Positions 6,847 to 27,810 of a stretch of DNA of 64,000 nt are shown piece after piece. Position 1 is the stretch's first letter. Each line of letters starts with the position of its first letter. The stretch is taken from assembly GCA_027487485.1 (NCBI GenBank), contig JAIYDN010000002.1, positions 41,633 through 105,632 of the forward strand. The letters are read 5' to 3'. This DNA is from Planctomycetaceae bacterium. Its GTDB lineage: Bacteria > Planctomycetota > Planctomycetia > Pirellulales > Pirellulaceae. Position numbers and translations under genes: made by a program. Under the pieces are notes generated by a model. That model ran no database searches, was not told the origin of the DNA, and was given only the letters and a program-made list of their open reading frames with translations.

Positions 6847-7638
6847 CTATTTTTTCTTGTCCATCATCATTGCGGGTGGCTTTGCCATTTGCCGAGCCAT
6901 TGCCTCTTTTGCCATCTCCATTTTCATGGCTGGCTCTTTCATCATTTTTTCTTTTGCCATCATCATGCTTTCCGACTTCATCATTTTGTCCATAGCTGGG
7001 TCCGCAGGCTTCATAGCGGCTTCTTTGACGGCCATGCCGATGTCCTTGTCCATCATCATCGCGTTCATCATCATTTCCTTGGCGACTTTCATCGTCATGG
7101 CTTCGTCGCCCATCATTCCCATTTTTGCGGCCTTCATATCGGCTTCGGGAATCATCATCATTCCAGCGGATGGCTTTTCAGTGCTTGCCATCATCATGTT
7201 GGTTGCAGTTTCTCGCATGATGAGCGTTTGAAGCATCGCTTGAAATTGTGCAGGATCGCTAAATACTTTTCGAATGGCAGCCTTTATTTGTTCGTCATTG
7301 ATCATGGGCTTGCCTTCTGGCATCGGAGCCATGGCATGCTCTTGTACCATCTTCATGGTCTTGTCGTCCTTCATGGCCATGGCCATGGATGTCTCCATAG
7401 CCATCGCTTTTGGCATCATTTCGCCAGCCATCATTTGTTCTTTGGCTTTCTGAATCATTGCAGGGGCAGCCATTTCTTTGGCTTTTTTCATGTCCATTGC
7501 GTCTTTGGCCATGGGATGTACATCAGACATCATTTTTCCCGCCTTCGCATTCGGTTCTTGAGCCGATGTCTGAATAGCTGGAATGGCTAAGCAAGCTGCC
7601 AACCATGCGGTCAGAAAGGTGTGTCGCGTTGTTTTCAT
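6847..7638 (-). CDS. Exported methionine-rich protein (60 Met of 263 aa)
   Basis: An N-terminal signal peptide (MKTTRHTFLTAWLAACLAIP..., cleavage near TSAQ) is followed by a low-complexity Met/Lys/Ala/Glu protein. I count 60 methionines in 263 residues (23 percent), many as MM or MMM. Only one short stretch (about 112-140) looks like ordinary folded helix. The ATG at 7638 follows GAGGGAGACGG; the upstream in-frame extension is not needed. The gene is last of a minus-strand group after an exported MsrB. The Met-rich peptide MrpX of Azospira is known as a sacrificial hypochlorite sink recycled by a methionine sulfoxide reductase; by analogy this is a periplasmic oxidant sink. Copper binding is the main alternative. 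Confidence 0.85.
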   Translation of the reverse strand: MKTTRHTFLTAWLAACLAIPAIQTSAQEPNAKAGKMMSDVHPMAKDAMDMKKAKEMAAPAMIQKAKEQMMAGEMMPKAMAMETSMAMAMKDDKTMKMVQEHAMAPMPEGKPMINDEQIKAAIRKVFSDPAQFQAMLQTLIMRETATNMMMASTEKPSAGMMMIPEADMKAAKMGMMGDEAMTMKVAKEMMMNAMMMDKDIGMAVKEAAMKPADPAMDKMMKSESMMMAKEKMMKEPAMKMEMAKEAMARQMAKPPAMMMDKKK

Positions 7639-7857
7639 AGAATCCGTCTCCCTCGTGTTCAAGTTACTCAATTCGAATTGCAGCTGAAGTCTGCGTGAGC
7701 GGCCAACACGGCATACTCTTTCTTCGGCCAAAGGCCACAGACGTCAACTATTCGGACCTAGTAGTAATCTAGTCATGGCGCGAGGAAGGGCCATCTGCCG
7801 TTCGGTATAGAAGCTCTGACTTTTTCTACTGATCATTCCGATCGAGAAAACCAGTGA

Positions 7858-8493
7858 TCAGCGAGTTGTAGTCGGCTGAAAATGAACGAGAAACTCGGAG
7901 TATCCTTCGGCCTCCAGTTTTCCTACCGGAACAAAACGCAATGCAGCAGAGTTTATGCAGTACCTTAGGCCAGTAGGTTTTGGTCCATCTGAAAACACAT
8001 GACCCAAATGAGAGTCGGCAAATTTCGAGCGAACTTCAGTACGAGTCGACCCCAGCTTACGATCTACTTTTTCCAAGATGTGGTCTGGGACTAATGGACG
8101 AAAGAATGACGGCCAGCCTGTTCCAGACTTGAACATTTCGCGTGAGCTAAAGAGAGGTTCACCCGATACGATATCCACGTAGATTCCGTCCTCTTTATTG
8201 TTCCAGTACTCATTTCGAAACGGAGCTTCCGTTCCCTCACGTTGAGTCACATCATACTGAATTCCTGTTAGTTTCGACTTCAATTCCGCATCGCTCGGTT
8301 TGGAGTAAACGGTTTTCGCTGAAACCGTTTTATCGTTCGAAGCTAAACGCGTTTGCGTCCCACCCATGTCTCGTTCATTCACCGATGAAATCGTTTCAGA
8401 AGCGATACTTAGAGTCTGAGCCTGTGTGTATCCTGCATTTACGCTCAATCCCAAGGCCAATAAAAAGCATGAAATCGAATAGTTCTTAGTCAT
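7858..8493 (-). CDS. msrB: Exported peptide-methionine (R)-S-oxide reductase MsrB
   Basis: MsrB reduces the R-epimer of methionine sulfoxide. This 211-aa protein has a signal peptide (about 1-26) and a full MsrB domain (about 65-207): TQREGTEAPFRNEYW, GEPLFSS, SGTGWPSFF, DSHLGHVFSDGP and GLRYCINSAALRF with catalytic Cys179. The zinc-binding CxxC pairs of many MsrBs are absent. The usual resolving Cys in SGCGWPSF is Thr, so Cys179 is the only Cys in the mature protein. It must be regenerated directly by an external thiol, perhaps the DsbD system at 22383. It lies between a coiled-coil exported protein and the Met-rich gene. Confidence 0.94.
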   Translation of the reverse strand: MTKNYSISCFLLALGLSVNAGYTQAQTLSIASETISSVNERDMGGTQTRLASNDKTVSAKTVYSKPSDAELKSKLTGIQYDVTQREGTEAPFRNEYWNNKEDGIYVDIVSGEPLFSSREMFKSGTGWPSFFRPLVPDHILEKVDRKLGSTRTEVRSKFADSHLGHVFSDGPKPTGLRYCINSAALRFVPVGKLEAEGYSEFLVHFQPTTTR

Positions 8494-8552
8494 GATCGAT
8501 ACCCCAGAGCTAGAGACTGTTTGCGAGATTTGAACTTCTATTGAAACTTGGT

Positions 8553-25851: not shown

Positions 25852-25889
25852 TTTGAAACCGTGTTCTTATAGTGAGGTGGGTACGTCCG

Positions 25890-26858
25890 ATGTTACAAGA
25901 TGAGATTACTCCGGAGCACTTGTTCTGGAATCGGCGACGCTGGATTCAGGCTGCGGCACTCGCTGGAAGCTTGCCCGTCTCATTTGGGGCGTACAGACTA
26001 TTCAATCCTATTGATATTGACGTAGTATTGCAGTCCGAGCTTAAGAATTTTGTCAAATCAGACCATGACTCGAAACACTTGCTCGAAAATGGATTCGCCG
26101 TCGGTGATTCTACGTCATCCATGTACGACATCACTCACTTCAACAACTTCCTCGAGTTTACAGATGACCAACAGGCTGTGGCGGCTAAGTCAAAGGACTT
26201 CCGCACAGATGGTTGGACGATCGAGGTTGGTGGTTTGGTTGAACGACCGATGACATTCACGTTAGACCAGATACGGACTGAGTTCCCAGTCGAAGAGCGC
26301 ATCTACCGAATGCGATGTATCGAAGCGTGGTCGATGGTGATCCCTTGGTCTGGCTTTCCGCTCGCGGCGCTTCTTGAGAAAGTACGGCCGACAAGCAACG
26401 CGAAGTTTGTTGCTTTCGAATCACTCAAGGACAGGTCGCGTATGCCAAACCAAGTTCCGGGTGAAGTCCAGTGGCCCTATCGCGAAGGTGTGCGATTGGA
26501 CGAGGCCTTGCATCCGCTGACTTTGATTGCGATTGGACTTTACAGACGGGAACTACCTCCCTGCAACGGCGCGCCCATCCGTTTGGTAGTACCGTGGAAG
26601 TATGGAATAAAGAGCATTAAATCGATCGTTAAGATTGATCTGGTGGCGGACCAACCAGTCACAGCGTGGAATCAAGCGGCTCCGCGTGAGAACGGTTTCT
26701 ATGCGAATGTGAATCCAAACGTAGATCATCCACGATGGAGCCAGAAAACCGAACGCAGGGTCGGCGAGCTATTGCGCCGCGACACGTTGCTTTTCAACGG
26801 GTACGAAAAACAAGTCGCACATTTGTACGATGGGATGGATTTGAATGTCCATTACTGA
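25890..26858 (+). CDS. msrP: Methionine sulfoxide reductase catalytic subunit MsrP (YedY), copy 2
   Basis: This 322-aa protein is a close paralog of the copy at 11383-12375. It keeps the molybdenum-ligand Cys143 in YRMRCIEAWSMVIPWSG, VVPWKYGIKSIKSIVKI and HPRWSQKTE. The N-terminal RRRWIQAAALAGSLP is Tat-like, with Trp-Ile in place of the usual Phe-Leu/Met. The ATG 25890 follows GAGGTGGG; a GTG at 25872 is possible. Its 3' end overlaps the next gene by 14 nt, so MsrP and its electron donor are translationally coupled. Confidence 0.94.
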   Translation: MLQDEITPEHLFWNRRRWIQAAALAGSLPVSFGAYRLFNPIDIDVVLQSELKNFVKSDHDSKHLLENGFAVGDSTSSMYDITHFNNFLEFTDDQQAVAAKSKDFRTDGWTIEVGGLVERPMTFTLDQIRTEFPVEERIYRMRCIEAWSMVIPWSGFPLAALLEKVRPTSNAKFVAFESLKDRSRMPNQVPGEVQWPYREGVRLDEALHPLTLIAIGLYRRELPPCNGAPIRLVVPWKYGIKSIKSIVKIDLVADQPVTAWNQAAPRENGFYANVNPNVDHPRWSQKTERRVGELLRRDTLLFNGYEKQVAHLYDGMDLNVHY

Positions 26859-27810
26859 ACCCATCCAGCCAGCAACGTTGGAGCAAACTGTAACAACGAC
26901 TTCCAAGCGTCCAATCACGTTCCCAGAACTCTTCGTGGTACTTAATGGATGTCTTCCGCTGGCCATGCTAATCTACGACGCGAAGCATCATCACCTTGGT
27001 CCCAATCCAATTAGCAATGGGCTGCACACAACAGGGTTGGTATCTATGCTGCTCCTCGTAGCGACATTGTCCGTTTCGCCACTGATAAAGCTCACGAAGT
27101 GGCAGCATTTGTTCTACTACCGTCGACCGCTGGGGTTGCTTGCATTCCTTTACGCAATCGCACACGTTTCGATCTATGTCGTTTATGATCGAGCATGGAA
27201 TTACCAAGAAGCATGGAACGAGGTAGTCGCTCGGCGTTACCTCCAATTTGGAGCGTTGGCGGTCGTATTGATGTTGCCGCTAGCAATAACATCGACGCCT
27301 TTTTGGGTATGGTGTCTCGGATTTCGGCGATGGAAATCATTGCACCGTTTGGTTTATCCTGCATCGATAGCGGCTGTGATTCATTATTTCCTACAAGCTC
27401 GAGCTGAAATCAAGCTTCCATTGGCTATGGGAAGTGCAGTCATCGGACTTCTTTTGTTTCGCGTACTGTCTGCTTCTAGGGAACTGCGAAAGAAAGGGCA
27501 TGCACCCAAAATTGATGAGGCAAAGGGCAGCTACTTGGTTGATTTCCTTGATGAAGGAATAAGTCATTACATCCATCCTGATACAACGTTACTGGAAGCC
27601 GCAAACCAGTTCGGTCTGAATCTTGATTCGGATTGCCAAGCGGGAGTTTGCGGCACATGTCGCATTCAGCTCATCAAGGGTGAAGTCATCATGGACGTTG
27701 ATTCAGGCTTGTCAAAGGACGACAAGGCAACAAACGTCATTTTGGCGTGCCAAGCGAAATGCCGCTCTGACATTTCGATACGTCGTATTCGCAAAGCGCC
27801 GTCAGGATGA
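26845..27810 (+). CDS. msrQ: MsrQ-like heme membrane protein fused to a 2Fe-2S ferredoxin domain
   Basis: The N-terminal 210 or so residues of this 321-aa protein are the MsrQ/ferric-reductase-like membrane domain, with His-bearing helices (FLYAIAHVSIYVVYD; SLHRLVYPASIAAVIHYFL). The C-terminal 90 residues are a plant-type 2Fe-2S domain (DSDCQAGVCGTCRIQL ... ILACQAK). The FAD/NAD(P)H module present in the other copy (9644-11368) is missing. It may take electrons from quinol, a soluble reductase or the ferredoxin domain itself. It is the last gene of the island and is convergent with trpF. Confidence 0.88.
   Translation: MSITEPIQPATLEQTVTTTSKRPITFPELFVVLNGCLPLAMLIYDAKHHHLGPNPISNGLHTTGLVSMLLLVATLSVSPLIKLTKWQHLFYYRRPLGLLAFLYAIAHVSIYVVYDRAWNYQEAWNEVVARRYLQFGALAVVLMLPLAITSTPFWVWCLGFRRWKSLHRLVYPASIAAVIHYFLQARAEIKLPLAMGSAVIGLLLFRVLSASRELRKKGHAPKIDEAKGSYLVDFLDEGISHYIHPDTTLLEAANQFGLNLDSDCQAGVCGTCRIQLIKGEVIMDVDSGLSKDDKATNVILACQAKCRSDISIRRIRKAPSG

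Follow-up and report, generated by a model that had tools for sequence, protein, structure and literature searches.

What, if anything, ties together a dense run of oxidant-defence genes in the genome of a Planctomycetaceae bacterium? The genes form an island of ~21 kb (6847..27810) in the window, a 64-kb stretch of a draft genome of 7.49 Mb (contig C54). The original prediction, made from the sequence alone, listed here MsrB, MsrA, two MsrP and two MsrQ proteins, DsbD, DUF1223, two thioredoxin-fold proteins, a Tat-exported chlorite dismutase (Cld), an AhpD-like protein, an Old Yellow Enzyme (OYE), an extracytoplasmic function (ECF) sigma factor, two methionine-rich (Met-rich) proteins and a zinc-type anti-sigma candidate (ZAS), and placed them under one sigma factor as a defence against oxidants, probably reactive chlorine. 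All of these genes are present. We consider it reasonably probable that the island is one envelope oxidant-defence regulon under its own ECF sigma factor, with seven gene groups that are each headed by a copy of one promoter.

The promoter motif, GTAAG-N17-CGTC, has seven exact copies in the 64 kb, every one of them within 9530-21622 and facing into genes. On the minus strand, copies precede the group of MsrB, Mrp1 and a conserved protein of unknown family, here called unk (9530..9555), the MsrP1-MsrQ1 pair (12455..12480) and TlpA2 (16904..16929). On the plus strand, they precede GNAT-ECF-ZAS-TlpA1-SpoIIE (12544..12569), the pair formed by a small open reading frame (ORF; 17909-18112) and Cld (17768..17793), AhpD-OYE (19316..19341, 72 nt before AhpD) and Mrp2 (21597..21622). 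The distance from motif to start is about 72 to 153 nt. The ORFs used here had program-made, "mechanical" starts, some of which were corrected to inner starts. Five of the seven copies are clear of all mechanical ORFs of these genes. The mechanical ORFs that enclose the Cld-pair and AhpD copies are too long; with the inner ATGs at 17909 and 19387 as starts, these two copies would be intergenic as well. For AhpD, 19387 is the most likely start, and a mechanical TTG start at 19186 was set aside.

The motif first came to notice by visual inspection of the stretches between MsrP1 and ECF in the window and in loci L027 and L028, and upstream of TlpA2, and these sites are therefore not independent tests; the sites at unk, the Cld operon, AhpD and Mrp2, and most sites in other genomes, are. 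Comparison of the MsrP1/ECF intergenic region with a paralogous island on contig C3 of the same genome and with genome G108 had given a repeated GGTAAGCGC-N15-GTC. The exact GTAAGCGC-N15-GTC occurs six times in the 7.49 Mb genome, four times in the island and twice in the C3 paralogue; since the reversed control also has six copies genome-wide, this count is ordinary and it is the placement that stands out. In six relatives the same form gave 12 matches, two at the G108 cluster and one at the AhpD site of G025, with the other nine, including all four from G098, unplaced. A stricter GGTAAGCGC-N14-CGTC with one mismatch was rejected, as its 12 sites (7 in the genome's two islands, 5 elsewhere) were fewer than the 20 of the reversed control. 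Judged across genera, the relaxed form fits better, with GTAAG and CGTC as the part that is held.

Genome-wide, the relaxed motif has 46 copies, of which seven fall within one 12-kb part of the island and four in the C3 island. The Poisson probability of at least seven copies at the genome density is 2e-12, for a stretch chosen after the fact. The spacing is specific: across 43 related loci and the window there were 58 matches at N17 and 13 at N16, and every other spacing in the 10-24 range gave at most 8 and as few as 1. We also fetched 34 contexts of ECF relatives, covering 35 of the 50 ECF places listed for the family; another eight places were at hand (window, C3, G108, G025 twice, G098, G546 and G547). 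These contexts (553 kb) hold 27 motif copies, against 4.2 expected and 6 reversed, and at least one copy is found in 21 of the 34. Fourteen phylum-wide contexts (241 kb), which are the ECF places of the phylum sample other than three of the 17 that belong to our own genome, hold 13 copies against 1.8 expected. At 38 of 45 tabulated sites a same-direction ORF, named or not, starts within -150 to +450 nt. A weight matrix was built from 54 sites with the window and near-identical relatives left out, but with the sites picked by the same exact core; among its matches in the 64 kb, six of the island sites took ranks 1-6 and the seventh came ninth. In between, at 7 and 8, were a site within the GNAT gene and a one-mismatch copy, GTAAT-N17-CGTC (17009..17034, plus strand), at the start of a LuxR-type regulator ORF (17016-17726). 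Because seven promoter copies face its genes, most of the island is likely to be under one ECF sigma factor, and we predict that the island's own sigma factor binds them. In two other loci (L183 at 10362, L100 at 9666) a motif copy lies within the 3' end of the sigma gene, upstream of the anti-sigma gene, which suggests separate anti-sigma transcription.

The predicted reader of these promoters is the ECF sigma factor at 13183..13797 (plus strand; TIGR02937, 81.1 bits), whose nearest named relatives come from metagenome-assembled planctomycetes (93, 80 and 77% identity). Counting our own genome, relatives were found in 38 of 241 genomes of the family and, at a stricter cut-off, in 15 of the 392 genomes of a phylum sample. 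Directly downstream lies the 78-aa ZAS (13806-14042, plus strand; CxxC ... HxxxCxCC), with a sub-threshold match to the RsrA model TIGR03988 (19.3 bits, cut-off 62.5). Its His-x3-Cys-x2-Cys and upstream Cys (His56, Cys60, Cys63 and Cys26) are kept in 40 of 40 aligned rows, the window included, and Cys29 in 39 of 40. An RsrA-like candidate adjoins the ECF gene in 39 of 40 loci (the exception, L185, is not in the alignment), and a ZAS-type protein stands beside it in 12 of the 14 phylum loci. RsrA is described as a redox-sensing zinc anti-sigma factor with three zinc-binding Cys (PMC4960319), and the ZAS motif resembles this site; since the RsrA model scores below its cut-off, an RsrA-like release of the sigma factor by thiol oxidation at the zinc site is proposed by analogy.

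Across genomes, genes next to the sigma family include MsrAB or MsrB, DUF1223, DsbD, AhpD, thioredoxin, TlpA, unk, and MsrPQ with a Met-rich ORF. Of 40 ECF loci, four (L027, L028, L029 and L031) were picked up through MsrP and 36 by the ECF alone; among the latter, 19 have an island- or flank-type redox gene (at least 100 bits) within 2.5 kb. All 40 loci together have 38 such genes within 2.5 kb and none beyond 5 kb in 255 kb. Thirteen of the 38 stem from the four MsrP-found loci, and ten belong to the flank types AhpD0, SnoaL and PPOX, which the gene list takes from 3691-6543 of the window.

The putative sinks are two proteins with predicted export. Counted from their likely starts, Mrp1 (6847..7638, minus strand; signal-peptide-like N-terminus) has 60 Met in 263 residues, and Mrp2 (21716..22222, plus strand; hydrophobic N-terminus) has 28 in 168. 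Neither matched a family in the Pfam or NCBIfam scans (20 island proteins scanned with Pfam; E<=0.01 here and below unless stated), and at E<=1 Mrp2 matched solely a sub-threshold model for a ribosomally synthesized and post-translationally modified peptide (RiPP; 15.3 bits, cut-off 30). Homologues of Mrp1 with comparable Met content are found in L085 and L032. A survey of 69 sequences listed 15 Met-rich ORFs, of which those of L052 and L092 were dropped, having no signal-like start and no cluster link; in L046 the listed start fails a crude signal test and an inner start passes. Besides the window, Met-rich ORFs are present in nine of 19 MsrP-bearing loci (L029, L030, L031, L032, L045, L046, L047, L155 and L172), and L085, an ECF locus without MsrP, has two. 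Several of them look like lipoproteins by eye, from what we take to be a lipobox. Mrp1 lies 1.9 kb and Mrp2 3.65 kb from the nearest MsrP or MsrQ gene, and in several relatives the Met-rich gene directly adjoins such a gene; in L032 the Met-rich ORF is 7.3 kb from MsrP2 and adjoins AhpD, DsbD and MsrB genes. We infer that Mrp1 and Mrp2 are oxidised in place of other envelope proteins.

Repair would fall to the Msr enzymes. MsrP1 (11383..12375, minus strand) scores above the equivalog cut-off of NF003767 (449.7 bits), with a Tat (twin-arginine translocation) signal (TIGR01409, 20.0 bits) and the catalytic Cys in YRMRCVEAW. MsrP2 (25872..26858, plus strand; Pfam PF00174) is 54% identical to it and has the catalytic Cys. 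MsrQ1 (9644..11368, minus strand) and MsrQ2 (26845..27810, plus strand) score 155.7 and 133.5 bits, above the NF003831 cut-off of 130. MsrQ1 is fused to FAD, NAD and 2Fe-2S domains, MsrQ2 to 2Fe-2S alone; with reductase domains of its own, MsrQ1 is likely to take electrons straight from cytoplasmic NAD(P)H. In MsrB (7858..8493, minus strand; SelR family; TIGR00357, 193.5 bits), predicted to be exported, the sole Cys beyond the signal-like N-terminus is the catalytic one (RYC), so the enzyme probably depends on an outside thiol donor. MsrA (PMSR; Pfam and NCBIfam), with 25195 as its most likely start (25195..25851, plus strand), has a hydrophobic N-terminal segment. Candidate thiol carriers, recognised by Pfam, are DsbD (22341..24287, plus strand; DsbD_N, DsbD_TM and thioredoxin domains), DUF1223 (24291..25145, plus strand; CSSC), TlpA1 (14095..15207, plus strand; CHNC, also in NCBIfam) and TlpA2 (16225..16776, minus strand; CPFC). 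TlpA1 and TlpA2 have the AhpC-TSA/TlpA fold, and DUF1223 is placed in the thioredoxin-like clan (PMC3091736). The AhpD-like protein (19387..19932, plus strand; CQYC) was found by Pfam and NCBIfam, and the NemA-like OYE (20235..21323, plus strand) scores below the NemA cut-off.

Cld (18175..18867, plus strand) bears most directly on the identity of the oxidant. Its Pfam score reaches no more than 30 bits, as the match is confined to the second half. In the PDB, over nearly the full mature length, it matches 9gtj at 241.6 bits (residues 48-228), 3qpi at 203.4 and 5k8z at 181.6. All 18 distinct PDB sequences matched are named chlorite dismutase, and since no others were matched a HemQ-type reading was set aside. 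The closest chains are short, 188-193 residues, and presumably of the lineage-2 type. His160 and Arg173, 13 residues apart, lie in stretches aligned with the PDB chains, at what we take to be the positions of the proximal catalytic His and the distal Arg. The protein is predicted to be a chlorite dismutase, which would release O2 from chlorite. Tat export is predicted from one feature, RREFLSGA at the N-terminus, which we take by eye to be a Tat-type motif.

Relatives of Cld (E<=1e-20) occur in four of 241 family genomes, three of which have the sigma/MsrPQ cluster; the Cld of G606 has no such context. In G098, two contigs with 99 exact end bases in common inside MsrQ1 together give ECF-ZAS, a Met-rich ORF, MsrP, MsrQ, Cld and TlpA2. 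Among 119 family genomes, 20 have relatives of MsrP1 at E<=1e-30 and six at 1e-100, a second cut set afterwards. Cld is borne by three of these 119 genomes, and each of the three belongs to the six (hypergeometric probability 7e-5, or 1.4e-3 when the window genome is left out). Our own genome has a second protein of the Chlor_dismutase family on contig C92 (43605-44261; L001), with a higher Pfam score than the island Cld (166 bits) and outside any ECF island seen.

The history of the island is uneven. A genome of the same genus, G546, carries at this place Mrp1, unk, ECF-ZAS, SpoIIE, LuxR, AhpD, OYE and Mrp2 with a DsbD remnant, and is without MsrPQ1, MsrB, TlpA1, TlpA2, Cld and the DUF1223-to-MsrQ2 genes; another ECF-ZAS pair lies elsewhere in that genome (L172), together with MsrPQ and a Met-rich ORF. 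In G025, of another genus, the segment from Mrp2 to MsrQ2 (window 21027-27789, 6.8 kb) is common at 98.2% DNA identity and Cld-AhpD-OYE (18099-21011, 2.9 kb) at 96.6%, against ~67% for the matched part of MsrPQ1. Recent transfer between genera would be the simplest reading of the two near-identical stretches, and binning error in draft genomes may be another source of them. The G025 segments lie on contigs C116 and C119, with extra ORFs between the promoter copy and Cld. The C3 paralogous island (407200-415600, L027) has ECF-ZAS, MsrPQ, unk, TlpA1, TlpA2, an unbroken SpoIIE and four promoter copies, with no Met-rich ORF over the survey thresholds in 20 kb.

The unk protein (8553..9449, minus strand; promoter copy at 9555) matched no family in the Pfam or NCBIfam scans. 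It recurs as a conserved family without annotation (28 homologues, P0001-P0028), repeatedly behind GTAAG-N17-CGTC. Its structure model (pLDDT 69.7, pTM 0.42), with beta segments and a long helix, had no PDB match at E<=0.001 and gave no function. A GNAT acetyltransferase (12677..13180, plus strand; Pfam) precedes the sigma gene. The SpoIIE/PP2C-type phosphatase (15264..15971, plus strand; Pfam) is shortened by a frame shift near 15965 compared with the L027 and L085 versions, through natural decay or assembly error. Beside the island, AhpD0, alpha/beta hydrolase, SnoaL and PPOX genes (3691-6543) were dropped as members, with no exact promoter copy ahead of them in the window; in L181 and L184, members of the AhpD0, SnoaL and PPOX families do stand beside this sigma family. 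A repeat at the right end of the window (63866-64000) is 83-92% identical to the MsrP1/ECF intergenic region of the C3 island (L027, 10272-10579).

Taken as one regulon, the island could work as follows. In the unstressed cell ZAS would hold the ECF sigma factor. An oxidant that reaches ZAS would oxidise the zinc-site thiols and free the sigma factor, by analogy with RsrA, and the freed sigma factor would switch on its own gene together with the sinks, repair enzymes, reductant carriers and Cld. The two Met-rich proteins would take up surplus oxidant instead of other envelope proteins, and the MsrP/MsrQ pairs, MsrB and membrane-anchored MsrA would turn methionine sulfoxide back to methionine, so that the oxidised Met-rich proteins are themselves re-reduced. 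DsbD and the TlpA-type thiol carriers would supply MsrA and MsrB, and MsrQ1 would draw on cytoplasmic NAD(P)H through its own reductase domains. Cld, with its Tat-like signal, AhpD and OYE may remove the oxidant or its products.

Parts of this scheme have precedents. MsrPQ is described as a repair system for methionine sulfoxide in the envelope, which E. coli induces under chlorite stress (PMC12503329), and Cld as detoxifying chlorite (PMC9751292). In Brucella, the Met-rich BcrX and MsrPQ are reported to serve resistance to hypochlorous acid (PMC8315932). Both MrpX-YedYZ-SigF/NrsF of Azospira suillum and BcrXQP-BcrS/AbcS of Brucella (ECF16) likewise place a Met-rich protein and MsrPQ under an ECF sigma factor. 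By analogy, the island would work like MrpX-MsrPQ under ECF16, with another sensor, promoter and electron supply. It departs from the ECF16 systems in three features. The MXKDX model TIGR02953 matches neither Mrp1 nor Mrp2, and in relatives it stays below its cut-off of 41 (L047 30.8, L155 31.5, L172 17.7 bits). The ECF16 anti-sigma factors are given as DUF1109 proteins with six transmembrane regions, whereas the island has a 78-aa zinc-type protein, and the ECF16 promoter, (T/C)GTAAC-N17-CGAA, has the same spacing but other letters (PMC8315932). No DUF1109 was among the Pfam matches of the 20 island proteins scanned. The island also differs from the MrpX system in the reductase joined to MsrQ1 and in the additional MsrB, MsrA, TlpA, AhpD, OYE, Cld and DsbD. 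NOX-like fusions, in which a ferric-reductase membrane domain continues into an FNR-type reductase, are reported to be numerous in prokaryotes, and E. coli MsrQ to work with a separate reductase, Fre (PMC11031084); MsrQ1 has the same build as these fusions, plus a 2Fe-2S domain and MsrP as gene neighbour.

The original claim that no such system is known proved too strong. The perchlorate reduction genomic island is described as holding an exported Cld, mrpX, yedYZ and sigF/nrsF, and in some strains exported msrA/msrB (PMC4623255). Unlike it, our genome is without a perchlorate/chlorate-reductase member above cut-off, its island Cld is near short chains, and the anti-sigma type is another. The nearest precedent we found for an Msr governed through a small cytoplasmic anti-sigma factor is RpoE2/HrsE of Haemophilus influenzae, where an ECF sigma factor, reportedly held by a 67-aa anti-sigma related to those of Neisseria and Streptomyces, controls periplasmic MsrAB; that paper names MsrAB and MtsZ as sulfoxide reductases and nowhere uses the term methionine-rich (PMC7907618). 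A survey of Cld neighbourhoods finds Cld routinely with methionine sulfoxide reductases, and its neighbourhood table has AhpD-like proteins and sigma and anti-sigma factors that sense reactive chlorine species; the available portion describes no promoter-defined regulon and no planctomycete Met-rich/MsrPQ/ZAS cluster (PMC9751292). Among the papers listed by our searches of the open-licence PMC literature, no title or opening of an abstract described this planctomycete regulon. The sigmaR/RsrA pair of Streptomyces shares the zinc-type anti-sigma, but the match of ZAS is sub-threshold and the island's outputs are mostly predicted envelope proteins. The sigmaR promoter, as we assume it to be, also differs from GTAAG-N17-CGTC.

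Several findings weigh against so unified a reading. The gene set is a mosaic, and the check by co-inheritance that the original prediction proposed has a mixed outcome: a core of Met-rich protein, MsrPQ and ECF-ZAS recurs in other genera, with Cld along in three of the four Cld-bearing genomes, but conservation does not extend to all 21 kb, as G546 shows. The same-genus genomes G010, G074 and G105 gave no match to MsrP at E<=1e-30. The 46 motif copies of the genome are fewer than the 110 of the reversed control, so that most are background and only the clustering is unusual. Thirteen of the 34 ECF contexts are without any motif copy, and 17 of the 36 ECF-chosen loci without an island- or flank-type gene within 2.5 kb. 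No Met-rich ORF was found in ten of the 19 MsrP-bearing loci. The Met positions of Mrp1 are conserved in the L032 homologue at 0.63, against 0.56 in shuffles that reflect composition alone, so selection on individual Met of Mrp1 is unsupported. No promoter copy lies directly before the DsbD to MsrQ2 genes, and between Mrp2 and DsbD stands a terminator-like hairpin (22274-22295; 8 pairs, T tail), although such hairpins are not enriched, with 21 in the region against 22.5 in shuffles. DsbD-DUF1223-MsrA-MsrP2-MsrQ2 may thus be outside the regulon or only partly in it, and the claim of one sigma factor over the island would hold for most of it. Cld is the only chlorine-specific part, and it has no NCBIfam match at E<=0.01, the Tat model included; its identity as originally predicted stands, its export as a prediction from the N-terminal motif. 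Finally, our genome has no NarG or type-II dimethyl sulfoxide (DMSO)-reductase-family (perchlorate/chlorate reductase) match above cut-off (best TIGR03479 score 95.1 vs 984.75 bits; one weaker molybdoenzyme on contig C50), and an internal chlorite source is therefore not evident. The hairpin between Mrp2 and DsbD could also leave transcripts of Mrp2 more abundant than those of the repair genes that follow. In L214 and L215, DsbD-DUF1223 lies directly before the ECF gene, behind one promoter copy. The window's DsbD to MsrQ2 genes may belong to the regulon.

How far do these points favour another explanation? Because of Cld, reactive chlorine is the most likely oxidant, and its standing as natural trigger depends mainly on that gene. 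Outside the island, in genomes without Cld, members of this ECF family have as neighbours thioredoxin, MsrAB and AhpD, none of them chlorine-specific, as well as DUF1223 and AhpC-TSA, and Cld is confined to four of 241 family genomes. With an RsrA-like ZAS, this would fit a regulon for thiol/disulfide and peroxide stress in general, the planctomycete equivalent of sigmaR/RsrA, to which Cld and the Met-rich genes were late additions and for which chlorine is not the natural trigger. We regard this as possible but rather unlikely, for many outputs of the island and of G098 are envelope Met repair, Met-rich proteins and Cld, which would be unexpected for H2O2 alone.

Met-rich proteins are also known as ligands of Cu(I) and Ag(I), so that Mrp1 and Mrp2 might bind copper or silver while the island repairs Met oxidised in metal stress. 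In E. coli under copper stress, MsrPQ is reported to act in this way on CusF (PMC9302797). However, the 20 island proteins scanned yielded no copper-related family, and metal-type motifs are few (no MxxH/HxxM and four MxxM in Mrp1, two of each in Mrp2), which makes this explanation improbable. We give even less weight to a chance neighbourhood, in which separate stress genes were piled up by gene transfer without joint control. The patchy inheritance, with its steps in identity between segments, would suit it, but seven copies of one promoter with fixed spacing at seven gene groups, and the way these genes turn up next to this sigma family in other genomes, would not.

On the regulon reading, which we prefer, what was a list of repair genes would become a regulon whose defined promoter makes planctomycete genomes searchable for it, and this reading offers a function hypothesis for an unnamed ECF/zinc-anti-sigma family of these bacteria. 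More tentatively, and with somewhat more doubt than belief, we suggest that a widespread planctomycete redox sigma/zinc-anti-sigma family with its own promoter code has in a few species recruited Met-rich sinks, NAD(P)H-powered MsrPQ fusions and an exported Cld, giving a self-contained chlorine shield without perchlorate respiration, against bleach-like oxidants met from outside. If the chlorine reading is true, bacteria that do not respire (per)chlorate maintain envelope defences dedicated to reactive chlorine and share them horizontally, which would bear on how much natural chlorine redox chemistry microbes face.

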